From the NCBI RefSeq assembly GCF_900110215.1, contig NZ_FOCX01000003.1, positions 248,001 through 312,000 on the forward strand: a DNA stretch of 64,000 nt, read 5' to 3'. Under the pieces are notes generated by a model. The model was not told where the DNA came from. It saw nothing but the letters and a program-made list of their open reading frames with translations, and ran no database searches. Position numbers and translations under genes: made by a program. Origin of the DNA: Halorientalis persicus. GTDB taxonomy: Archaea; Halobacteriota; Halobacteria; Halobacteriales; Haloarculaceae. This document shows, one piece after another, positions 45,158-56,520 of the stretch. Every line of letters starts with the position of its first letter. Positions within the stretch are counted from its first letter, which is position 1.

Positions 45158-45566
45158 ACGCTTCACTCGTTCGGATGAACAATATCGCTTTCTAAACCAC
45201 GACACCGAACGGAACGAGAGAAAAATGCTGGTTCACGACCAGTTCGTCCGCACTGCCTCCCCGGGCGGTCGGGGCCACGCCGACGAGCGTCACGGCGGTG
45301 ACGGCCACCGGAGCTGGACCGGCAGTCGCCGCATTCCGCCTCCTTGCCGCCGTCGCGAGGCCGCTCGTGGATTTCCGCGGGCACCACGGGCGGCCCACGA
45401 TGCCGTGTGATGGCGTACCACCATTTAGACCATAATGTTCTATAATGGGGCTTTGAGAGAACAGTCTGGTCGCATAGAAGGATTTAATACACAGTTTGTT
45501 CGTACTATGGGTGAAGGCGGCGACATCAGTTCGCCGGGGTTGCGGTGATCCCGGTGGAGTGGTGTG
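45158..45566. promoter_or_regulatory. Upstream region of the dab operon
   Basis: 409 bp without a supported gene. CCATAATG-TTC-TATAATGG (45430-45448) is an imperfect palindrome and TTTAATA at 45483-45489 is a TATA box, giving a leader of about 50-55 bases before the ATG at 45567. GGTGGAG at 45553-45559 is a clear Shine-Dalgarno 7 bases before that ATG, unusual beside the many leaderless genes here. Confidence 0.55.
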
Positions 45567-47072
45567 ATGCCGCTCACAGAGCAAACGATGACAGAACAGA
45601 CCGGGCCGAAAACGGTGGGACAGCTCCCGAACACGTCCACGTCGACGCCGCTCGCACCGGCGGTGTTCACGCGACTCGTGTGGACACTGTTCGTCGCGAG
45701 TCTCGGTGCGCTCGTCGCGCGACAGCTGACCGGTGGGCACTGGGAGATCCCTGGACTGGCCGCCGTCGACGGACTGACGGTCCTGCTGTGGGTCGTGGTG
45801 ACTTTCTTCAGTGGCATCGTCCACAGTTACTCGCGGCGCTACATGGCCGGGAGCGAACACATCACGCGCTTTTTCACGCGCCTGTTCGCGTTCACGATCT
45901 CGGTGATGGTGCTGGTCGCCGCCGACCACGTCGCCCTGTTCGGGGCCGCGTGGCTGGCGATGGGACTGGTGATGGCCGACCTGATCGGGACCGTCCGTGG
46001 CTGGCCACAGGCCCGGGCCGCCGCCGCCCTCGCCCGCCGGTACTTTCTGGCCAGCAGTCTGTTCCTCGGTGCCGCCCTCGCGACGCTGGCCTGGGCGACG
46101 GGCGCGACGACGATCTCGGGCATCCTGACGGCCGTCGGCACGGTCCCGGACGCGACCCTGCTCGTGGCCGCGGGCCTGCTCCTGCTGGCCGCGATGGTCC
46201 AGTCCGCGCTCGTCCCCTTCCACTCCTGGTTGCTCTCCTCGATGACCGCGCCGACGCCGGCCTCGGCGCTGATGCACGCCGGCTTCGTCAACGCGGGTGG
46301 GATCCTCCTGCTCCGGTTCGCCCCTGTGGTCACCGCTGACGCGACGTTCATGCTCCTGGTCGTGGTCGCCGGCGCGACCAGCGCACTGCTGGGCAAACTC
46401 CTGAAAGCCGTCCAGACCGACGTGAAGCGCAAACTCGGCTGTTCGACGACCGGCCAGATGGGCTTCATGATCGCCCAGGCCGGCCTCGGCTTCTTCGGGG
46501 CCGCTATCGCCCACCTGATCCTCCACGGGTTCTACAAGGCCTACCTGTTCCTCTCGGCCGGCGAACAGGTCGAACACACCAGCCCGGCCACGTCCGAGCC
46601 CGGGACGGTAACCCTCGTCGGCGGTGCCGTGACGGTCCTCACGGCCGTCGCCGGCGGTGCCCTGTTCGCCCTCCTCACCGGGAAGGGCACGCACTTCGAC
46701 AGCGGGCTCTTGCTGACGGGCCTGATCTCGCTGACGACGTTGCACGCCACCTGGACCGCGGTCCGGCACACCGACGTTCCGGCCGCGATCCGGTACGGTG
46801 TCGTTCCGCTGGTCTTCCTGCCCGCCATCGCCGTCTACGCCGGGGTTTACACCGCGGTCTCCGCGGTCCTGGCCGGCGTCCCGCTCGTGACGGCACCGGC
46901 CGAGCTGACCCTCGTTCACGGCCTCGTCGCAGTCGCCTTCCTCGCGGCCTACGTCGCCATAGAGACGGGCCTCTACCAGCGGAGCCGTCGGCTCTACGTG
47001 GCGCTGGTCAACGCCTCACAGCCGTCGACCGGAACCCTGCTGACCGCCACGGAGGAGTACAATGAATACTGA
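45567..47072 (+). CDS. dabB: DAB complex membrane subunit DabB (NuoL/MrpA-like)
   Basis: 501 residues with about 12-14 TM helices of the proton-conducting NuoL/M/N type: SALVPFHSWLLSSMTAPTPASALMHAGFVNAGGILLLRF (about 215-253), GKLLKAVQTDVKRKLGCSTTGQMGFM and HLILHGFYKAYLFLSAGEQV. It energises CO2 or bicarbonate uptake by its partner DabA, most likely through the proton or sodium gradient. ATG at 45567 after GGTGGAG; a GTG just before is possible. Overlaps dabA by 11 bp. Confidence 0.92.
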   Translation: MPLTEQTMTEQTGPKTVGQLPNTSTSTPLAPAVFTRLVWTLFVASLGALVARQLTGGHWEIPGLAAVDGLTVLLWVVVTFFSGIVHSYSRRYMAGSEHITRFFTRLFAFTISVMVLVAADHVALFGAAWLAMGLVMADLIGTVRGWPQARAAAALARRYFLASSLFLGAALATLAWATGATTISGILTAVGTVPDATLLVAAGLLLLAAMVQSALVPFHSWLLSSMTAPTPASALMHAGFVNAGGILLLRFAPVVTADATFMLLVVVAGATSALLGKLLKAVQTDVKRKLGCSTTGQMGFMIAQAGLGFFGAAIAHLILHGFYKAYLFLSAGEQVEHTSPATSEPGTVTLVGGAVTVLTAVAGGALFALLTGKGTHFDSGLLLTGLISLTTLHATWTAVRHTDVPAAIRYGVVPLVFLPAIAVYAGVYTAVSAVLAGVPLVTAPAELTLVHGLVAVAFLAAYVAIETGLYQRSRRLYVALVNASQPSTGTLLTATEEYNEY

Positions 47073-49497
47073 CACAGCGATATCCGAGAGCATCGAACAG
47101 GCAACAGACAGCGTCGGCTCGGTCTGGCCGCTCCACTCGTTCGTGACGGCCAACCCCCTCGCCGGGTTCGAGGACCGTCCGTTCCACGAGGCCGTCGAGC
47201 GGGCCGAAGACCTGCTCGGCGGCGACGGCTACCCGAGTCCCCACGTGTTCCGCCAGGCCTGGGAGACGGGGCGGATCGACCCCGACGTGCTGGCCGAGAA
47301 ACTCGCCGAACGCGGGTACGAGGCCGACCCCGAAGCGTCGCTCGACCGGCTGGAATCCCGTGCCGACAGGACACCGGATGTCGAGACGGCCGAGACGCCC
47401 GCGGATCGCGTCGACGCCGTCCTGACGAAGTGGCTCGCGGCCTTCCTCGACCAGGGGACGGCCACCTGGTCGATGCCCGACCGCGAGCAGGGGTTCTACG
47501 CCGCCGTCCGGTCGGTCGCCCCCCACGACGGCGACATTCCCGACGGGTCCGCCGACGCGTGGCCCGCGGCCCCCGCCGACGCCATCGAGCGCGTCCTCGA
47601 CGACCAGCCGAGAGACGCGTGGCCGGCCATCTTCGAGCACCACCTCACCGCGCTCCCGGGCTGGACCGGGTTCATCAAGCAACGCGCCGCCGCCGACGGT
47701 GCCTGGCAGTCGACGTACCCGATCACGCTGGCCGGGTATCTCGCGGTCCGCCTCACGCTTTCCGACCTGTTCGACGCGCAGGTTCTGCCCGCCGAGCCAG
47801 TGACCGACGCCGAGGTGACCGACGACGATGGCGTCCCGCTGGAAGAAGTCTGGCTCTCCGCGTGGGAAGCCAGCTATCGCTCGGAACTGGTCGAGGCCGT
47901 GGCCGACCGCAGTGCCACGGCCGCCGAAGCCGACGGCGGCCGGCCCGACGCGCAGTTCGTGTTCTGTATCGACACGCGCTCGGAGATCGTCCGCCGCCAC
48001 ATCGAGGCCGCGGGCGACTACGAGACCCACGGCTACGCCGGCTTCTTCGGTATCCCGATGCGGTACGAGGGATACGACGCCGACGTGAGCGTCGACGCCT
48101 GTCCGCCCATCGTCGACGCCCAGCACCGCATCACCGACCGCCCGACGGCCGACGCCGGCGACCGGACGGCCTACGACCGCTGGTCGAACGTTCGCGACGC
48201 GGGCGCCAAACTGGTCAAATCGCTCAAGGCGAACGCCGCGACCGCGTTCAGCTACGTCGAGAGCGCGGGCAGTGGCTACGGACTGGCGCTGGCCGCCCGG
48301 ACGCTCCTGCCCGGTCGCGTCTACGACGCCCGCGACGCGGCCGACGAGCGCGTGCCCGACGACCACGAGATCTGTGAGCCCTCGGTCGACTACAACCCCG
48401 ACGCCGTGACCGAACTCCGGGAGGGGCTCACGCTGGAGGAGCAGGTCGAGTACGCCGCGACGGCCTTCGAGTTAATGGGCTGGGAGGAGTTCGCCCGTCT
48501 CGTCGTCTTCGCCGGCCACGCCAGCCAGACCGCGAACAACCCGTTCGATTCGAGCCTGGACTGTGGGGCCTGTGCCGGCAACCCCGGCGGCCCGAACGCC
48601 CGCGTCCTCGCGGCAATCTGTAACGACGACGATGTCAGAGCCGAACTCCGCGAGCGCGGGATCGAGATCCCCGAGGACACCGTCTTCGTCGCCGGCGAAC
48701 ACAACACGACGACCGACGAGATCGACCTGTTCGACGAGTCGGTCCCGGAGAGCCACGCCGACGACCTCGAACAACTCCGTGCCGACCTGGAGACCGCTCG
48801 CGCCGGGGCGGCCGCCGAGCGCGCCGCGGACATGGGCGCTGACGAGGACCACGGCGTCCGCGAGACCGAGCGCCGCGCCGCCGATTGGGCCGAGACCCGT
48901 CCCGAGTGGGGCCTGGCCGGCAACGCTGGCTTCGTCGTCGGCCCGCGCGAACTCACCGAGAACCTGGATCTGGACGGCCGGTCGTTCCTCCACTCCTACG
49001 ACTGGTCGACCGACGACGACGGCGACGCGCTCGAAGCCATCGTGACCGGCCCCCTGGTCGTCACGCAGTGGATCAACACCCAGTATTACTTCGCGACCGT
49101 CGACAACGGCGTCTACGGCAGCGGCTCGAAGGTCACGCACAATCCCGTCGGCAACGTCGGCGTCTACCAGGGCAACGGCGGCGACCTGATGACCGGCCTC
49201 CCACTCCAGTCGCTCATGGCCGCCGACGACGAACCCTACCACCAGCCACTCCGCCTCTCGACCGTGATCCACGCCCCGGTCGAGCGCATCACCGAGGTCC
49301 TCGCCGACCACGAGGCCGTGACCGAACTGCTCGACAACGGCTGGCTCTCCCTGACCGTCGTCGACCCCCAGCAGGACCACCGCGCGTTCCACTACGACGG
49401 CGAGTTGACCTGGACCGGCCACGAATCGATCGAGGCGACGGCGGCGACCGAGCCCTCGACCGCCGAGGCGTCCACCGAAGCGACCGCCGACGACTGA
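47062..49497 (+). CDS. dabA: DAB complex catalytic subunit DabA (DUF2309)
   Basis: 811 residues, typical DUF2309. It is a cytoplasmic beta-carbonic-anhydrase-like zinc protein that makes bicarbonate one-way. The zinc site is complete: Cys302 and Asp304 in FVFCIDTR, His486 in VVFAGHASQT and Cys501 in SLDCGACAGNPGG, matching Cys, Asp, His, Cys of the Halothiobacillus protein with the same 15-residue His-Cys spacing. N-terminal SVWPLHSFVTANPLAGFE is also conserved. ATG overlaps the dabB stop by 11 bp. Confidence 0.94.
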   Translation: MNTDTAISESIEQATDSVGSVWPLHSFVTANPLAGFEDRPFHEAVERAEDLLGGDGYPSPHVFRQAWETGRIDPDVLAEKLAERGYEADPEASLDRLESRADRTPDVETAETPADRVDAVLTKWLAAFLDQGTATWSMPDREQGFYAAVRSVAPHDGDIPDGSADAWPAAPADAIERVLDDQPRDAWPAIFEHHLTALPGWTGFIKQRAAADGAWQSTYPITLAGYLAVRLTLSDLFDAQVLPAEPVTDAEVTDDDGVPLEEVWLSAWEASYRSELVEAVADRSATAAEADGGRPDAQFVFCIDTRSEIVRRHIEAAGDYETHGYAGFFGIPMRYEGYDADVSVDACPPIVDAQHRITDRPTADAGDRTAYDRWSNVRDAGAKLVKSLKANAATAFSYVESAGSGYGLALAARTLLPGRVYDARDAADERVPDDHEICEPSVDYNPDAVTELREGLTLEEQVEYAATAFELMGWEEFARLVVFAGHASQTANNPFDSSLDCGACAGNPGGPNARVLAAICNDDDVRAELRERGIEIPEDTVFVAGEHNTTTDEIDLFDESVPESHADDLEQLRADLETARAGAAAERAADMGADEDHGVRETERRAADWAETRPEWGLAGNAGFVVGPRELTENLDLDGRSFLHSYDWSTDDDGDALEAIVTGPLVVTQWINTQYYFATVDNGVYGSGSKVTHNPVGNVGVYQGNGGDLMTGLPLQSLMAADDEPYHQPLRLSTVIHAPVERITEVLADHEAVTELLDNGWLSLTVVDPQQDHRAFHYDGELTWTGHESIEATAATEPSTAEASTEATADD

Positions 49498-49601: not shown

Positions 49602-50147
49602 ATGACTGGCGATCGTGTCACGGTATCACTCACGGAGGAGGCACAGTCGGCGCTCGAAGATCTCACCGAACGGACGGAGGAGAACCGGAGTGAGGTCATC
49701 CGCGAGGCGATCTCCTTCTACGCGGCGAACTTCGAGTCGGCGCGAGCGAGCGACAGCGACGACCTCCAGACGTACTATCGAATGTTGAACACGGGCGAAC
49801 ACGTGTTGCTCGACGTCGACCTGCTCCACGCCTTTCTGGACAACGTCGAGGGCGAGGACGGGCCGGACCCGGCGTTTCTGGAGACCGTCGACCGGGTCGC
49901 CGAGTACCACACACAGGAGTACGCCCAGCGGTTCGATTCGCTCGGGGAGATCCTCGAGTGGCTCTCGTTCTGTGGGTTCCTGACGGTCCGGGAGACCGAG
50001 GGGGACAGCTATCAGGTCGTCTTCCCCTCCGAGTCGGTCCGCTGGTTCATGACGCGGTTCATCCAGGGGAGCATCGGCGACCTTCCCTTCGAGGTCGAGA
50101 TCGAGGAGAGCCTCTCCAAAGTATTACTGAAAGAGTGTGAATCCTGA
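49602..50147 (+). CDS. Ribbon-helix-helix regulator with long C-terminal domain
   Basis: 181 residues. RVTVSLTEEAQSALEDLTERTEENRSEVIREAISFYAANF (about 4-43) is a CopG-like ribbon-helix-helix. The remaining 130 residues are acidic and helical with a Phe/Trp-rich part (EILEWLSFCGFLTVRETEG) and are not NikR-like; they may bind a ligand. GTTTATGTC centred 27 bases before ATG 49602 is the TATA box, which is why the ATG at 49575 is rejected. It precedes the NRAMP-hyu operon and the palindrome at 50177-50193. Confidence 0.8.
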   Translation: MTGDRVTVSLTEEAQSALEDLTERTEENRSEVIREAISFYAANFESARASDSDDLQTYYRMLNTGEHVLLDVDLLHAFLDNVEGEDGPDPAFLETVDRVAEYHTQEYAQRFDSLGEILEWLSFCGFLTVRETEGDSYQVVFPSESVRWFMTRFIQGSIGDLPFEVEIEESLSKVLLKECES

Positions 50148-50176
50148 CGCTGTTTTCTCACGTATTCATACAGCCG

Positions 50177-50193
50177 ATGTGCAGGATGCACAT
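50177..50193. promoter_or_regulatory. Perfect palindrome ATGTGCA-GGA-TGCACAT
   Basis: Seven-base arms with a 3-base centre, 30 bp after the RHH gene and 63 bp before the NRAMP-like start. The position fits an operator of the transporter-hydantoinase operon; the RHH protein is the natural candidate. Confidence 0.55.
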
Positions 50194-50255
50194 ACATCTC
50201 AACAACGCTTTTCTCTGCTTGTAGGTATCATGCCAACAGATCTCAATACGAAACC

Positions 50256-51464
50256 ATGAACGTTATTCAGCGGCTCAAGGCGATCGGCCCCGGGGCGATG
50301 GTGGCGGCGGCCTTCATCGGTCCGGGGACGGTAACGGCGGCGAGCGTGACCGGTGCCCGACTGGGGTACGCCCTGCTGTGGACGATCGCGTTCTCGATCG
50401 TCGCGACGATCGTCCTCCAGGAGATGTCGGCCCGGCTGGGGCTGGTCTCGGGCGAGGGGCTCGGCGAGGCGCTCCGGAACCGGTTCGACAACCAGATCGT
50501 CGAATCCGTCGCGATCTTTCTCGTCGTCGGCGCGATCGGCGTCGGGACCGCGGCCTACGAGTCCGGGAACATCCTGGGCGGTGCCGCGGGGCTGGCGACG
50601 ATCACCGGCGTGAGTTCGACGATCTGGGGCGTCGTCATGGGGCTGGTCGCCGGGGCCCTGCTGTTCACCGGGAAGTACAAGCTGATCGAGCGGGCGCTGG
50701 TCGGTCTCGTCGCCGTCATGGCGCTGTCCTTCGTCGCGTCGGCGATCCTGATCGGCCCCGACCTGGGGGCGATCGCCGGCGGGTTCGTCCCGAGTATCCC
50801 CGAGGGGTCGCTCTACCTCATCACCGGCCTGATCGGGACGACGGTCGTCGGCTACAACCTCTTCCTGCACGCGAGCAACGTCCAGGAGCGGTGGTCCGGA
50901 CCGGGTGATCTCGCCGAGTCCCGCACCGACACGATCCTCTCCATCGCCGTCGGCGGGTTCATCACGATCACGATCATGGTCACCGCGGCGGCCGCGTTCC
51001 CGCTGGGGACCGAACTCGACGACGTCGGACAGATGGCCCAGCAACTCGAACCGCTGGCGGGCTCTTACGCGAAGATCTTCTTCAGTATCGGGCTGTTCGC
51101 CGCGGGCTTTACGAGCGCGACGACCGCGCCGCTGGCCGGCGCGTGGGCGACGACGGGTGCCCTCGGCTGGGATTCGGACCTCAAGAGTCCGAAGTTCCGC
51201 GCGGTCTGGGGGACGATCCTGGCGGTCGGCGTCGGGTCGGTCCTGCTGGGCGGGAGTCCGGTCGAGATCATCGTCTTCGCGCAGGTCGTCAACGGCATCC
51301 TGCTCCCGATCGTCGCGATCTTCCTCATCTACGCCATGAACCAGTCCGACCTCCTCGGCGAGTACACGAACGGCCCGATCGCGAACGCACTCGGGGCGAT
51401 CGTGACGCTCATCGTGGTGGGGTTGGGCCTCCGAACGCTCCTGAACGTGGCGGGGGTCCTCTAG
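50256..51464 (+). CDS. NRAMP-family-like transporter without the metal motifs
   Basis: 402 residues, about 11 TM helices. AAAFIGPGTVTAASVTGARLGYALLWTI (about 17-44) takes the place of the first NRAMP motif but reads GPGT where metal transporters have DPGN, and the sixth helix reads GYNLFLHASNVQERW where they have MPH. Metal transport is therefore unlikely. The stop directly precedes hyuA (ATG follows TAG), so it probably imports the substrate of the hydantoinase/oxoprolinase. Bacillus YcsG next to 5-oxoprolinase genes is a parallel. Confidence 0.87.
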   Translation: MNVIQRLKAIGPGAMVAAAFIGPGTVTAASVTGARLGYALLWTIAFSIVATIVLQEMSARLGLVSGEGLGEALRNRFDNQIVESVAIFLVVGAIGVGTAAYESGNILGGAAGLATITGVSSTIWGVVMGLVAGALLFTGKYKLIERALVGLVAVMALSFVASAILIGPDLGAIAGGFVPSIPEGSLYLITGLIGTTVVGYNLFLHASNVQERWSGPGDLAESRTDTILSIAVGGFITITIMVTAAAAFPLGTELDDVGQMAQQLEPLAGSYAKIFFSIGLFAAGFTSATTAPLAGAWATTGALGWDSDLKSPKFRAVWGTILAVGVGSVLLGGSPVEIIVFAQVVNGILLPIVAIFLIYAMNQSDLLGEYTNGPIANALGAIVTLIVVGLGLRTLLNVAGVL

Positions 51465-53468
51465 ATGAGCGATAGAGTCGTCGGTGTCGACGTCGGCGGG
51501 ACCTTCACCGACGTGACGCTGCTGGTCGACGGCGACCTCGTCACGGCCAAAGTGCCGAGTACGGACGACCAGAGCGACGGCGTCATGGCCGGTATCGAGA
51601 AGGCCTGTGCCGAAGCGGGCGTCGACCCCGAGGAGATCGAGGGGTTCTCACACGCGATGACGGTGTCGCTGAACGCCCTCCTCGAAGAGTCGGGGGCGGA
51701 GACCGCCCTCGTGACGACCGCCGGGTTTCGGGACGTGCTGGAGATCGGTCGGCAGGACCGCCCCTCGCTGTACGATCTCGACGCGGAGAAGCCCGCGCCG
51801 CTGGTCCCCCGGCGACGGCGGTACGAGGTCGACGAGCGGACGACGACCGAGGGCGTCGAACGGAGCGTCGACGAGGCCGAGGTCCGGGACGTGGCGGACG
51901 CGATCCGCGAAGACGACGCCGAGGCCGTCGCCGTCTCCCTCCTGCACGCGTACGCCACCCCCGAGAACGAGCGGACGGTCGCGCGGGTCCTCCGCGAGGA
52001 ACTGGACGTGCCCGTCTCGGCCTCCAACGAGGTGCTGGCGGAGTTCCGGGAGTACGAACGGACCTCGACGACCGTCGTCGACGCGTACCTGCGACCCGCG
52101 ATCGACCGGTACGTCGGCCACCTCTCCGAGCGAGCCACCGACGCCAGCCTGCCCGAACCCCGGATCATGCAGGCCAACGGCGGCATCACCGACGCCGAGA
52201 CGGTCCGGCACAACGCCGTCCTGACGGCGCTGTCGGGCCCGGCCGCGGGCGTCGTCGGCGCGAACGAGATGGCGTCGACCGACGGCGACGACCCGGCGCG
52301 ACTCGTCACGTTCGACATGGGCGGCACGTCCAGCGACGTGAGCCTCGTGCGCGACGGCGAGGTCGAGCGGACGACCGACGGCGAGATCAACGACCGCCCG
52401 ATCCGGACGCCGCTGGTCGACATCGAGACGGTCGGGGCCGGCGGCGGTTCGATCGCGTGGGTCGACTCGGGCGGTGCGCTCCGCATCGGCCCCCAGTCTG
52501 CCGGCGCGGAGCCGGGGCCGGCCTGTTACGGTCGCGGCGGAACCGAACCGACCGTGACGGACGCCAACCTCGTCCTCGGGTACATCGGATCGAGTACCAG
52601 CCTCGGCGGGGAACTCTCCCTCGACGAGCAAGCGGCCCACGACGCGATGGCCGACCTCGCCGAGCAAGCGGGAATGGACGACCCAGTCGAGGCGGCCCGG
52701 GGCGTCTACCGCGTCGCCAACGCCAACATGACGCGTGCGATCCGGTCGGTCACAGTCGAGCGGGGTTTCGACCCCCGGAAGTTCGGCCTCGTCGCCTTCG
52801 GCGGTGCCGGCCCGATGCACGCCGTCTCGATCGCGAGCAACCTCGACATGGAGCGGGTGGTCATCCCACGTGCGTCGGGCGTCCTCTCGGCGTACGGACT
52901 GCTGGCGGCCGACGAGAAACAGGACGCGGTCCGAACCTACCAGCGCCCGCTCGAATCCGTCGATCCCGATACCGTCGAAGGGATCTACGACGACCTGGCC
53001 GACGAGGTGCTGGCCGAGACCAGCGAGCCCGAGCGAGCGACGGTCACGCACACGGCTGATCTGCGCTACGCCGGCCAGAGTTTCGAGCTCTCCGTGGAGG
53101 TCGGCGACGCCTTCGACCGCGAGGACGCCCGCGACCGGTTCGAGGACGCACACGAGGTCGCGTACGGCTACCGGATGGACGAACCGGTCCACCTGGTCAA
53201 CTGCCGCGTGACGGCGACGGTCGACCGCGACGTGCCGCCCATCGACTACACCGCGACCGGCGACCCGCTCAAGGGGGCGCGTGACGCGACCTTCGAGGAC
53301 GGCGTCTACGAGACGCCGGTGTACGATCGTGCGCGCCTCCGGCCCGGACAGTCGCTGGGTGGCCCGACGATCGTCGAACAGGACGAGAGTACGGTCGTCG
53401 TCCCCCCACACTGGGACGTGCGGGTCCGTGACGACGGCGCGTTAGTTTCCGAGGTGACCGAACAATGA
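51465..53468 (+). CDS. hyuA: Hydantoinase/oxoprolinase subunit A
   Basis: 667 residues, ASKHA-type ATPase fold: RVVGVDVGGTFTDVTLLVDG at the start (phosphate 1), HAMTVSLNALLEESGAETALVTTAGFRDVLEIGRQDRPSLYDL, TFDMGGTSSDVSLVRDG (phosphate 2) and GAGGGSIAWVDSGGALRIGPQSAGAEPGPACYGRGG. With subunit B it hydrolyses hydantoins or 5-oxoproline using ATP. ATG at 51465 follows the NRAMP stop without a gap. Confidence 0.93.
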   Translation: MSDRVVGVDVGGTFTDVTLLVDGDLVTAKVPSTDDQSDGVMAGIEKACAEAGVDPEEIEGFSHAMTVSLNALLEESGAETALVTTAGFRDVLEIGRQDRPSLYDLDAEKPAPLVPRRRRYEVDERTTTEGVERSVDEAEVRDVADAIREDDAEAVAVSLLHAYATPENERTVARVLREELDVPVSASNEVLAEFREYERTSTTVVDAYLRPAIDRYVGHLSERATDASLPEPRIMQANGGITDAETVRHNAVLTALSGPAAGVVGANEMASTDGDDPARLVTFDMGGTSSDVSLVRDGEVERTTDGEINDRPIRTPLVDIETVGAGGGSIAWVDSGGALRIGPQSAGAEPGPACYGRGGTEPTVTDANLVLGYIGSSTSLGGELSLDEQAAHDAMADLAEQAGMDDPVEAARGVYRVANANMTRAIRSVTVERGFDPRKFGLVAFGGAGPMHAVSIASNLDMERVVIPRASGVLSAYGLLAADEKQDAVRTYQRPLESVDPDTVEGIYDDLADEVLAETSEPERATVTHTADLRYAGQSFELSVEVGDAFDREDARDRFEDAHEVAYGYRMDEPVHLVNCRVTATVDRDVPPIDYTATGDPLKGARDATFEDGVYETPVYDRARLRPGQSLGGPTIVEQDESTVVVPPHWDVRVRDDGALVSEVTEQ

Positions 53469-55060
53469 CCGACGACATCGACCCAGTCACGCTGGAGATC
53501 CTGCGGAACCAGCTCGAAAGTATCGCCGAGGAGATGGGGCACGTCCTCATCACCGGTTCGTACTCGCCGAACATCAAGGAGCGACAGGACTGTTCGACCG
53601 CCCTCTTCGACGCCGACGGGAAGATGATCGCACAGGCCGAACACATCCCGGTCCACCTCGGCGCGATGCCCGACGCCGTCGACGCGATCATCGACGACGA
53701 CCCGAAGCCGGGCGACGTGTTCATCGTCAACGACCCCTTCGCGGGCGGGACCCACCTCCCCGACATCACGCTCGTGTCGACCATCGCGCCCGAGGACGAG
53801 GTGATCGGGTTCGCGGTCTCGCGAGCCCACCACGCCGACGTGGGCGGGAGCGCGCCCGGCAGTATGCCCCCGGGAGCCCAGGAGATCTACGAGGAAGGCT
53901 TGCGCCTGCCGGCTGTGCGCCTCGTCGACGGCGGCGAGTTGAACGAGGCGGTGCTGGACGTGTTGCTGGCCAACGTCAGGACGCCCGACGAGCGCCGGGC
54001 GGACCTGCGGGCCCAGCGCGCCGCCAACGAACGGGCCGAAGAGCGGATCGGCGAACTGCTCGACGACCACGGCTCGCTGTTGCTGGACGCGTTCGACGCC
54101 GTCGTCGACTACTCGCGAGCGCGTATCGAGTCCGAAATCGCCGACCTCCCCGACGGCGAGTATCATGCACACGACGTGCTCGAAGGGGACGGCGTGACCG
54201 ACGAGGACATCCCCATCGAGGTGACGGTCACCGTCGACGGCTCCGAGATCGCGGTCGACTTCGCGGGCACCGCCGCGCAGGTGACTGGCAACCTCAACGC
54301 GCCGCTCTCGGTCGCCAAGAGCGCGGTCTACTTCGTCGTCCGGGCGGTCACCGACCCGGAGATACCGTCGAACCACGGCTGTTACGAACCGGTCAGCGTC
54401 GCTGCGCCCGAGGGGACGGTCCTCAACCCCAGGCCTCCGGCCGCAGTGGTCGGCGGGAACGTCGAGACCAGCCAGCGCGTGACCGACGTGACCCTCGCGG
54501 CGCTGGCCGAGGCGATCCCCGAACGCGTCCCGGCCGGCGGACAGGGGACGATGAACAACCTCATCATCGGCGATCGCGAGGGCGAGTTCACCTACTACGA
54601 GACGATCGCGGGCGGGTTCGGTGCCCGCCCCGACAAGGACGGCATGGACGGCGTGCAGGTCGGGATGACCAACACCCTGAACACACCGGTCGAGTCGATG
54701 GAGAGCGAGTACCCGCTCCGCGTCGAGACCTACGCCCTCCGCCCGGACAGCGGCGGCGACGGGAAACACCGGGGCGGCCTTGGACTCGAACGCTCGGTCA
54801 CGGTCGAGACCGACGCGACCGTCTCCCTGCTCACAGAGCGCCGCCGCACCGCGCCCGCCGGCGTCGACGGCGGCGCGGACGGCGCGATGGGCGAGAATCT
54901 GATCGACGGCGACCCCGTACCTTCGAAGGCATCTGTCGACGTGAGCGCCGGCGCGACCGTGACGATCCGCACGCCCGGTGGCGGTGGCCACGGCGACCCG
55001 ACCGACCGGTCCGACGAGGCACGGGAGGCCGACCGCCGTGACGAGAAGGTGACCGAATGA
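53465..55060 (+). CDS. hyuB: Hydantoinase/oxoprolinase subunit B
   Basis: 531 residues. DPVTLEILRNQLESIAEEMGHVLITGSYSPNIKERQDCSTALFDADG at the start, GDVFIVNDPFAGGTHLPDITLVSTI, FAVSRAHHADVGGSAPGSMPP and MNNLIIGDREGEFTYYETIAGGFGA are the family blocks. ATGA overlap with hyuA, so the subunits are made together. 5-oxoproline, hydantoin or a related cyclic amide is the likely substrate. Confidence 0.93.
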   Translation: MTDDIDPVTLEILRNQLESIAEEMGHVLITGSYSPNIKERQDCSTALFDADGKMIAQAEHIPVHLGAMPDAVDAIIDDDPKPGDVFIVNDPFAGGTHLPDITLVSTIAPEDEVIGFAVSRAHHADVGGSAPGSMPPGAQEIYEEGLRLPAVRLVDGGELNEAVLDVLLANVRTPDERRADLRAQRAANERAEERIGELLDDHGSLLLDAFDAVVDYSRARIESEIADLPDGEYHAHDVLEGDGVTDEDIPIEVTVTVDGSEIAVDFAGTAAQVTGNLNAPLSVAKSAVYFVVRAVTDPEIPSNHGCYEPVSVAAPEGTVLNPRPPAAVVGGNVETSQRVTDVTLAALAEAIPERVPAGGQGTMNNLIIGDREGEFTYYETIAGGFGARPDKDGMDGVQVGMTNTLNTPVESMESEYPLRVETYALRPDSGGDGKHRGGLGLERSVTVETDATVSLLTERRRTAPAGVDGGADGAMGENLIDGDPVPSKASVDVSAGATVTIRTPGGGGHGDPTDRSDEAREADRRDEKVTE

Positions 55061-55758
55061 CTGCCCGTCTCGGCCTCGTCGTCCCCTCCTCGAACACCAC
55101 GGCCGAACCCGAGTTCCGGGCGATGGCTCCCGAGGCCACGACCGTTCACGCCGCCCGGATGCCGCTGGAGGACGTGACCGTCGACGGTCTCGACGAGATG
55201 GCCAGCGGTGCCGAGCACGCCGCGGAACTGCTCGCCCACGCCGCCGTCGACGGCCTCGCGTACGCGTGTACGACGGGGAGTCTCCTGCACGGGCCCGGCT
55301 TCGACGAGGAGCTTGAGTCACGGCTGTCCGACGCGGCCGGCGCGCCGGCCGTCGCGACGGCCCTGTCGGTGAAACGCGCTCTCGCCGCGCTCGACGCCGA
55401 GACGGTCGCCGTCGTCACACCCTACGCCGCCGAACTGAACGAACGCGAGCGGGCGTACCTGGCCGACTCGGGCTTCGCGGTCGCCACCCTCGACGGCCGG
55501 GGACTCGTCGACAACACCGAGATCGGCGAGTTGACCGCCGCGGACGCGAAACGGCAGGTCAGGTCCGCCGTTCCCGACGATACTGCTGTGGACGCGGTAT
55601 TCGTCTCCTGTACGAACTACCGGACTGTGCCGGTCCTATCCGATCTGGAGGACACGCTCGGCGTCCCCGTGATCTCCAGCAACGCCGCGACGATGTGGGA
55701 CCTCGCCGACCGGCTGGGTGTCGAGTCGACTCTCGACACGGCGCTCACCGCGGTCTAA
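55057..55758 (+). CDS. Maleate isomerase / Asp-Glu racemase family enzyme
   Basis: 233 residues. RLGLVVPSSNTTAEPEFRAM, then DGLAYACTTGSLLHGPGFD with the first catalytic Cys (about residue 70), and VDAVFVSCTNYRTVPVLSDLEDTLGVPVISSNAATMWDL with the second (about 188). The two-Cys layout is that of maleate cis-trans isomerase and hydantoin racemase relatives. It follows hyuB with a 4-bp overlap, so racemisation or isomerisation of the pathway substrate is plausible. Last gene before the island. Confidence 0.85.
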   Translation: MTARLGLVVPSSNTTAEPEFRAMAPEATTVHAARMPLEDVTVDGLDEMASGAEHAAELLAHAAVDGLAYACTTGSLLHGPGFDEELESRLSDAAGAPAVATALSVKRALAALDAETVAVVTPYAAELNERERAYLADSGFAVATLDGRGLVDNTEIGELTAADAKRQVRSAVPDDTAVDAVFVSCTNYRTVPVLSDLEDTLGVPVISSNAATMWDLADRLGVESTLDTALTAV

Positions 55759-55969: not shown

Positions 55970-56239
55970 ATGTCGAATACGGATACAGCAAGCGGCGACC
56001 CGGAGAAGACGAACATCAACATCCGTCTGACGGAGATGTTTCTCGAAGACATCGACGCGACGTGGCAGGACGAAGGCTACAACAGCCGTAGTGAGTTCAT
56101 CCGGGAGGCGCTGCGCGACGCAGTGCGACATCCGGACCTGACCCGCGAGAGCTGGAAGGAGATCGCTGCCGTCGAGCACGCGCGCCGGACAGGCGAGAGC
56201 GAGACGTTCTCCCGCGAGGAGATCCTCGACGACGAATGA
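55970..56239 (+). CDS. Ribbon-helix-helix antitoxin (ParD/RelB-like)
   Basis: 89 residues. INIRLTEMFLEDIDATWQDEGYNSRSEFIREALRDAVRHPDL (about 17-58) is the RHH DNA-binding unit; the acidic C-terminus would wrap the toxin. TATA-like AATATTA lies at 55924-55930. ATGA overlap with the toxin gene. It likely represses its own promoter and neutralises the toxin. Confidence 0.88.
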   Translation: MSNTDTASGDPEKTNINIRLTEMFLEDIDATWQDEGYNSRSEFIREALRDAVRHPDLTRESWKEIAAVEHARRTGESETFSREEILDDE

Positions 56240-56520
56240 GTGACGACGAGTGGACCTGGCAGTTCCGCAAGCCCGCCAAGCAGACCTACGACGATCTCGA
56301 CGACCACGCCCAGGACCGGATCACTGACAAACTCGACGAGATCGTGACCGATCAGTGGCGAGACCCCGACGACTATCTCGAACCGCTGACCGGCGCACCG
56401 TATTCGAAACTGCGCGTCGGTCAATTCCGTCTGGCTGCCGACTGTAATCACGCCGAGCAGATGCTGGACATCTACAGCATCGAGCATCGGAGTGGTGCGT
56501 ACAAAGCTGACGACGACTGA
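56236..56520 (+). CDS. RelE/ParE-family toxin
   Basis: 94 residues: WTWQFRKPAKQTYDDLDDHAQDRITDKLDEIVTD then YLEPLTGAPYSKLRVGQFRLAADCNHAEQMLDIYSIEHRSGAYK, the RelE/ParE order with the central R-x-G-x-x-R-like segment and a final Tyr. It may cut mRNA on the ribosome or target gyrase; I cannot tell. Coupled to the antitoxin by a 4-bp overlap. Confidence 0.88.
   Translation: MSDDEWTWQFRKPAKQTYDDLDDHAQDRITDKLDEIVTDQWRDPDDYLEPLTGAPYSKLRVGQFRLAADCNHAEQMLDIYSIEHRSGAYKADDD

Follow-up and report, generated by a model that had tools for sequence, protein, structure and literature searches.

We examined a run of four head-to-tail open reading frames (ORFs) on the forward strand of a 64,000-nucleotide stretch of the Halorientalis persicus genome (contig NZ_FOCX01000003.1, positions 248,001 to 312,000; the window below). 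The first ORF encodes an NRAMP-fold transporter of 402 aa (50256..51464, on the + strand as are all features given here; PF01566, 3e-100). It is followed by hyuA (51465..53468, 667 aa; PF05378/PF01968/PF19278), predicted to encode an ATP-dependent lactam-activating subunit, by hyuB (53465..55060, 531 aa; PF02538, 1.4e-204), predicted to encode a metal-dependent ring-opening subunit, and by a gene for an Amdase/maleate-isomerase-like protein of the Asp/Glu racemase superfamily (55057..55758, 233 aa; PF17645, 2e-36). A first-pass annotation of this DNA had noted that the transporter stop touches the hyuA start and that the next three genes overlap in turn. We found the same: the TAG stop directly abuts the hyuA ATG at 51465, and the hyuA/hyuB and hyuB/racemase-family junctions each overlap by 4 bases. 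The feature had been started at 50177, which falls inside the leader; the conserved transporter start is the ATG at 50256. A genome search identified a single PF01566 protein and likewise single copies of hyuA and hyuB in the genome. The operon anatomy is certain, as are the residue replacements described below, and on the comparisons presented here we consider it very likely that the transporter and HyuAB form a pair for uptake and hydrolysis of 5-oxoproline (pyroglutamate).

We compared the residues of the transporter with those of Deinococcus radiodurans Nramp (DraNramp, 8e5s). In transmembrane helix 1 (TM1), FIGPGT of the window protein aligned with YMDPGN of DraNramp, so that GPGT (residues 22-25, 50319..50330) stands in place of the metal-binding DPGN, as had been proposed. 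In TM6, VVGYNLFLH aligned with VMPHVIYLH, and VGY (residues 198-200, 50847..50855) therefore takes the place of MPH. The earlier reading of HAS at this position was in the wrong register, since HAS sits a few residues further on (LFLHAS). The slip makes no difference to the claim that metal transport is unlikely, because all four metal side-chain ligands of DraNramp are gone (D56 to G22, N59 to T25, M230 to V198 and H232 to Y200). The proton-path residue E134 of DraNramp corresponds to N105. GPGT and V-x-Y were each present in 41 of 41 haloarchaeal transporter sequences, which indicates that the metal site was re-tooled and not left to decay. An AlphaFold model of the transporter showed a confident NRAMP fold (pLDDT 89, pTM 0.88) in which TM1 is broken at residues 21-22 and TM6 at residue 198. 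Foldseek matched the model to DraNramp and EleNRMT, the best hits, and to BfraNramp, with query TM-scores of about 0.8-0.86.

A TM3 Y...N pair together with a TM6 V...Y pair is diagnostic of an 'orphan' phylogenetic outgroup of SLC11 (Cellier, PMC10606218), which is nearest to SLC11 yet distinct from NRMT (PMC9606685). The window transporter lacks the canonical NRAMP/MntH motifs (DPGN in TM1, MPH in TM6) and carries both orphan pairs, in AAYESGN of TM3 (Y-E-S-G-N, residues 101-105, 50556..50570) and VVGYN of TM6; in an alignment of its relatives, nearly all had Y or F together with N in TM3. In a tree of 75 rows, those of the orphan group formed one clade (support 98), separate from canonical MntH, NRMT and PxpT-type proteins (100 each). 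The tree was built by a quick method and had some long branches, and its deep branching order was therefore not relied on. By its residues and its place in this tree, the transporter belongs to the SLC11 orphan outgroup; it is neither a canonical NRAMP nor an NRMT, and it is not orthologous to YcsG/PxpT. The NRMT magnesium transporters (EleNRMT, 7qia) have the same fold and are likewise NRAMP relatives without canonical metal motifs, but their TM1 and TM6 read GNDAGG and IAPW. Diverse residues replacing DPGN and MPH in Nramp-related proteins were also described in a 2026 preprint (PMC12873925). A search of a viral sequence collection yielded no relatives of the transporter. A set of haloarchaeal NRAMP-like proteins at 30-36% identity was considered as close relatives and rejected, since these fall in other clades. 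As a separate observation, haloarchaeal NRAMP-like clades of this kind (L074-L093, L099) carry GPGS or GSGS in TM1 and no MPH, and the inspected cases lie in catabolic islands that also contain genes for IclR regulators, Gfo/Idh oxidoreductases and fumarylacetoacetate hydrolases; these proteins may be additional NRAMP-fold carriers that move organic acids instead of metals.

The first-pass annotation had also drawn a parallel with Bacillus YcsG and 5-oxoprolinase. The analogy is apt, since pxpTABC of Corynebacterium glutamicum and ycsG-pxpABC of Bacillus subtilis likewise place a PF01566 transporter in one operon with a local regulator and a 5-oxoprolinase that uses ATP. It does not extend to orthology. 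The window transporter lies in another clade and was 24% identical to a PxpA-linked PxpT-type protein, the enzyme here is the non-homologous HyuAB, and the regulator is of the ribbon-helix-helix (RHH) and not the GntR/KipR type. Our PxpT-type comparators were plasmid-borne, PxpA-linked relatives that stood in for the B. subtilis and C. glutamicum proteins; those examined were also devoid of the metal ligands (GPGF in TM1, GGY in TM6). An independent precedent is PxpT of C. glutamicum, a member of the NRAMP family that is ~50% identical to YcsG: growth on 5-oxoproline depends on it (PMC13274462).

To the orphan outgroup, previously described without a named substrate (PMC10606218, PMC9606685), our analysis adds a conserved enzyme partner. 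Contigs were scanned with three seeds, two bacterial relatives and the window protein itself, which gave 80 loci whose transporters were 45-74% identical to the first seed. Homologues of pxpA/pxpB/pxpC adjoined the transporter in 31 of these loci, from Bacteroidota, Kangiella, Microbulbifer, Alkalihalobacillus and Natroniella, one of which lay at a contig end and showed pxpA only. In seven of the 80, hyuAB adjoined it: five haloarchaea, an actinobacterial metagenome-assembled genome (MAG) with the order D-glutamate cyclase-transporter-hyuAB (L214), and a Rhodobacteraceae genome with a fused hyuAB of 1201 aa 5' of the transporter (L203). In the 30 loci measured, the transporter and the first enzyme gene were -11 to +21 bp apart, whichever enzyme was the partner. 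The HyuAB- and PxpABC-linked rows were interleaved in the tree, indicating at least two partner changes among the labelled rows. PxpABC, the established 5-oxoprolinase, has no sequence relationship to the CapAB/oxoprolinase family (PMC8453981). The reaction common to PxpABC and HyuAB is 5-oxoproline hydrolysis. Other neighbours of the transporter genes bear on the same compound. D-glutamate cyclase (PF07286), whose product is 5-oxo-D-proline, flanks both pairings: it occurs in the actinobacterial hyuAB locus as well as in loci of Lactiplantibacillus, Paracoccus, Pseudoalteromonas and Natroniella that are linked to PxpA; a search of the H. persicus genome for this family found none. The enzyme that acts on glutamate next, glutamate dehydrogenase, is encoded 5' of the operon throughout the sampled Haloarcula-type genomes, and a different type of the enzyme sits between transporter and regulator in another locus (L039). 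A D-glutamate cyclase homologue was also seen near a PxpT-type NRAMP protein of Acinetobacter baumannii (L219), which suggests that this operon serves 5-oxoproline too.

The conservation of the operon was assessed in 292 haloarchaeal genomes, and 40 orthologous loci were fetched for neighbourhood comparison. An orthologue of the transporter (54-94% identity) was present in about 85 of the genomes, and transporter, hyuA and hyuB were contiguous in 37 of the 40 loci, which span many families. HyuB homologues occurred in 276 of the 292 genomes as against 36 for PxpA, which suggests that HyuAB is the 5-oxoprolinase that haloarchaea generally use and that fewer than a third of the genomes have gained the transporter in addition. 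The near-universal HyuB carries only a hydantoinase/oxoprolinase annotation. Since a search of the H. persicus genome with PxpA (PF03746) gave no match, HyuAB is the only 5-oxoprolinase candidate recognised there. Replacement by a non-orthologous transporter was considered for genomes with hyuAB alone and rejected, as 20 hyuAB loci without the transporter shared no consistent conserved neighbour.

HyuAB was compared with the caprolactamase CapAB (6yra), with which it shares the ATP motifs of HyuA, the metal tetrad of HyuB and the split into two subunits. HyuAB is a putative 5-oxoprolinase of the OPLAH type. HyuA matched 7hk5 with 447.8 bits and CapA with 380.5 bits, and its phosphate-site residues D9 and D284 and adenosine-site residue P350 were invariant in 59 of 59 sequences. 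The CapB tetrad D41/H99/D102/H124 corresponds to D42/H97/D100/H122 of HyuB, also kept in 59/59. The two enzymes differ in the pocket, which in caprolactamase is lined by Thr, Ala and Leu beside a vicinal disulfide (PMC8453981). This hydrophobic disulfide pocket is not conserved in HyuB: Thr341, Ala414, Leu415 and the Cys410-Cys411 disulfide of CapB correspond to R338, N403, T404 and V399-G400 in all 59 sequences. The pocket region is thus polar, and R338 could hold a carboxylate, which is suggestive only because the arginine is common to a chain deposited as an N-methylhydantoinase. HyuAB also scored far below the NCBIfam caprolactamase equivalog cut-off of 1000 (494.6 and 261.2 bits), and family membership therefore leaves the substrate unfixed.

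The gene 3' of hyuB was kept in most sampled operons. Its product matched PF17645 with 126 bits as against 38.6 for PF01177, and its best solved relatives were maleate isomerases (2xec, 4fq7). It shares this fold family with maleate isomerase, arylmalonate decarboxylase and EutA, but scored below the NCBIfam cut-offs (120.9 of 225 bits for AMDase, 114 of 318 for EutA) and keeps two cysteines, C71 (33/33) and C185 (32/33). Two-base racemases and isomerases keep two cysteines and arylmalonate decarboxylase has one; the conserved pair therefore favours a racemase or isomerase. The simplest guess from the sequence is a 5-oxoproline racemase, and we offer it tentatively. In one haloarchaeal locus (L072) the transporter and racemase-family genes stay together near an aldehyde:ferredoxin-oxidoreductase-like gene (identified by eye), with hyuAB elsewhere in the genome. 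Downstream of the operon, a 94-aa ORF (56236-56520) looked RelE/ParE-like by eye and had no Pfam match.

An RHH (CopG-type) regulator gene (49602..50147; PF01402, 1.7e-07), with an alternative in-frame start at ATG 49575, lies 5' of the transporter. Its product has a conserved C-terminal region of unassigned function. Orthologues occupied this position in most sampled loci, and in Haloarcula and Haloferax the upstream regulator carries an RHH/CopG annotation. RHH proteins bind sites made of repeats such as those of the TTCAYAC kind that we detected in the leaders. In the window, two TTCAYAC-like half-sites, TTCTCAC and TTCATAC, 10 bp apart, form an imperfect pair (50155..50171) ~100 bp 5' of the transporter start, a candidate operator. 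Pairs of this type with a 10-bp period and a score of at least 11/12 were counted in 34 of 46 haloarchaeal leaders (shuffled expectation 0.14) and triples in 20 (0.005 expected), with the motif spotted and counted in the same leaders and with kinship among them left uncorrected. Other periods (7-9 and 11-15) gave 0-2 leaders, and together with the shuffles this control makes chance an implausible source of the repeat. The RHH protein is probably the local regulator and would act at these repeats. A promoter-like element, CTCAACAACGCTTTT (50198..50212), has a similar form in many orthologous leaders. A 17-bp palindrome at 50177-50193 was dropped, as it was found in the window only and was not conserved. 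Directly 5' of the regulator gene lies a dabB-dabA-type inorganic-carbon transporter pair (45564-49497), an order kept in two genomes of the same genus (L034, L035).

We propose that the locus is a regulated operon for scavenging 5-oxoproline, a compound that arises spontaneously from glutamate and glutamine. The NRAMP-fold protein would bring 5-oxoproline into the cell by alternating access via its LeuT-fold centre, inward direction and coupling being part of the prediction. HyuA would use ATP to activate the lactam, and the metal site of HyuB would open the ring to yield L-glutamate as a source of carbon and nitrogen and for the osmolyte pool. The racemase-family protein may turn 5-oxo-D-proline into the L form, and the RHH protein would control the operon at the leader repeats. 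The decisive support for the proposal is the swap of pxpABC and hyuAB as partners of one transporter clade. Evolutionary distances of the transporter also correlated with those of HyuA (r 0.76) and HyuB (r 0.71), in part through shared species history.

Several observations weigh against this proposal. Neither enzyme adjoined the transporter in 42 of the 80 orphan-clade loci, including all those of Pseudoalteromonas, and no common neighbour theme emerged among several that were probed in them; the clade may therefore have several substrates or act apart from the enzyme. Because of these unpartnered loci, it is rather doubtful that the orphan clade as a whole consists of 5-oxoproline importers. 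Among the 40 haloarchaeal loci there were three exceptions, one with hyuAB a few kb from the transporter on the opposite strand (L047) and two with no adjoining hyuAB (L072, L073). Hydantoins and other lactams are substrates of HyuAB enzymes too, and R338 occurs in the N-methylhydantoinase chain as well. The literature yielded no biochemistry on any member of the transporter clade, and YcsG itself has been reported as a manganese importer, MntG (PMC10448178).

These points bring in other substrates. If the operon served hydantoin or N-methylhydantoin use, a 5-substituted hydantoin would be imported and converted by HyuAB to an N-carbamoyl amino acid, with the fourth gene encoding a hydantoin racemase. 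The family names, the presence of an Asp/Glu/hydantoin racemase superfamily member and the deposition of the closest solved HyuAB relative as an N-methylhydantoinase fit this scheme. However, no N-carbamoyl amino-acid hydrolase was found among the identified window neighbours, the fourth protein belongs to the Amdase/maleate-isomerase branch, the same transporter clade adjoins pxpABC, a 5-oxoproline opener, and glutamate dehydrogenase or D-glutamate cyclase are neighbours in some genomes. We therefore regard hydantoin use as very unlikely. The first-pass annotation had named 5-oxoproline or a hydantoin; an importer of the HyuAB substrate is upheld, and the choice narrows to 5-oxoproline because bacterial transporters of the same clade sit stop-to-start with pxpABC, because D-glutamate cyclase flanks both pairings and because glutamate dehydrogenase was recruited in Haloarcula and another genus. 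Import of some other lactam or cyclic amide, such as a gamma-lactam from breakdown of a compatible solute or polymer, with HyuAB as a general lactamase, would agree with the diversity of the ATP-dependent lactamase family (PMC8453981) and with the failure of HyuAB to reach the caprolactamase cut-offs, but it leaves pxpABC as the alternative partner unexplained, and a near-universal haloarchaeal HyuAB better fits a housekeeping metabolite such as 5-oxoproline. We judge it very unlikely as well.

A transporter that still moves a divalent metal (Mn, Mg or Zn), for general import or as cofactor supply to HyuB, is also very unlikely in our estimate. The NRAMP fold, the metal site of HyuB and the rise in cellular Mn upon overexpression of YcsG (PMC10448178) speak for it; the near-invariant replacement of all four metal ligands, the position outside the NRMT and canonical clades, recurrent partners that are 5-oxoprolinases and the lack of any recurring metal-homeostasis gene among the inspected neighbours speak against it. 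A broader conjecture, which we hold as possible and no firmer, extends 5-oxoproline import to the whole orphan outgroup with its two unrelated 5-oxoprolinases, derives NRAMP metal transport from an amino-acid-like carrier and credits the haloarchaeal set with a new 5-oxoproline racemase.

The pairing of transporter and HyuAB for 5-oxoproline supplies the orphan group, which is sister to the NRAMP metal transporters and had no substrate, with a specific and testable one, and the 'divalent metal transporter' label that databases give to such proteins is probably wrong in this clade. The pairing also bears on the dispute over what NRAMP-like proteins encoded alongside 5-oxoprolinases transport, 5-oxoproline (as for PxpT) or manganese (as for YcsG/MntG), and the orphan clade is an independent system in which that conflict could be settled. 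For the haloarchaea, the finding points to HyuAB as their usual 5-oxoprolinase.

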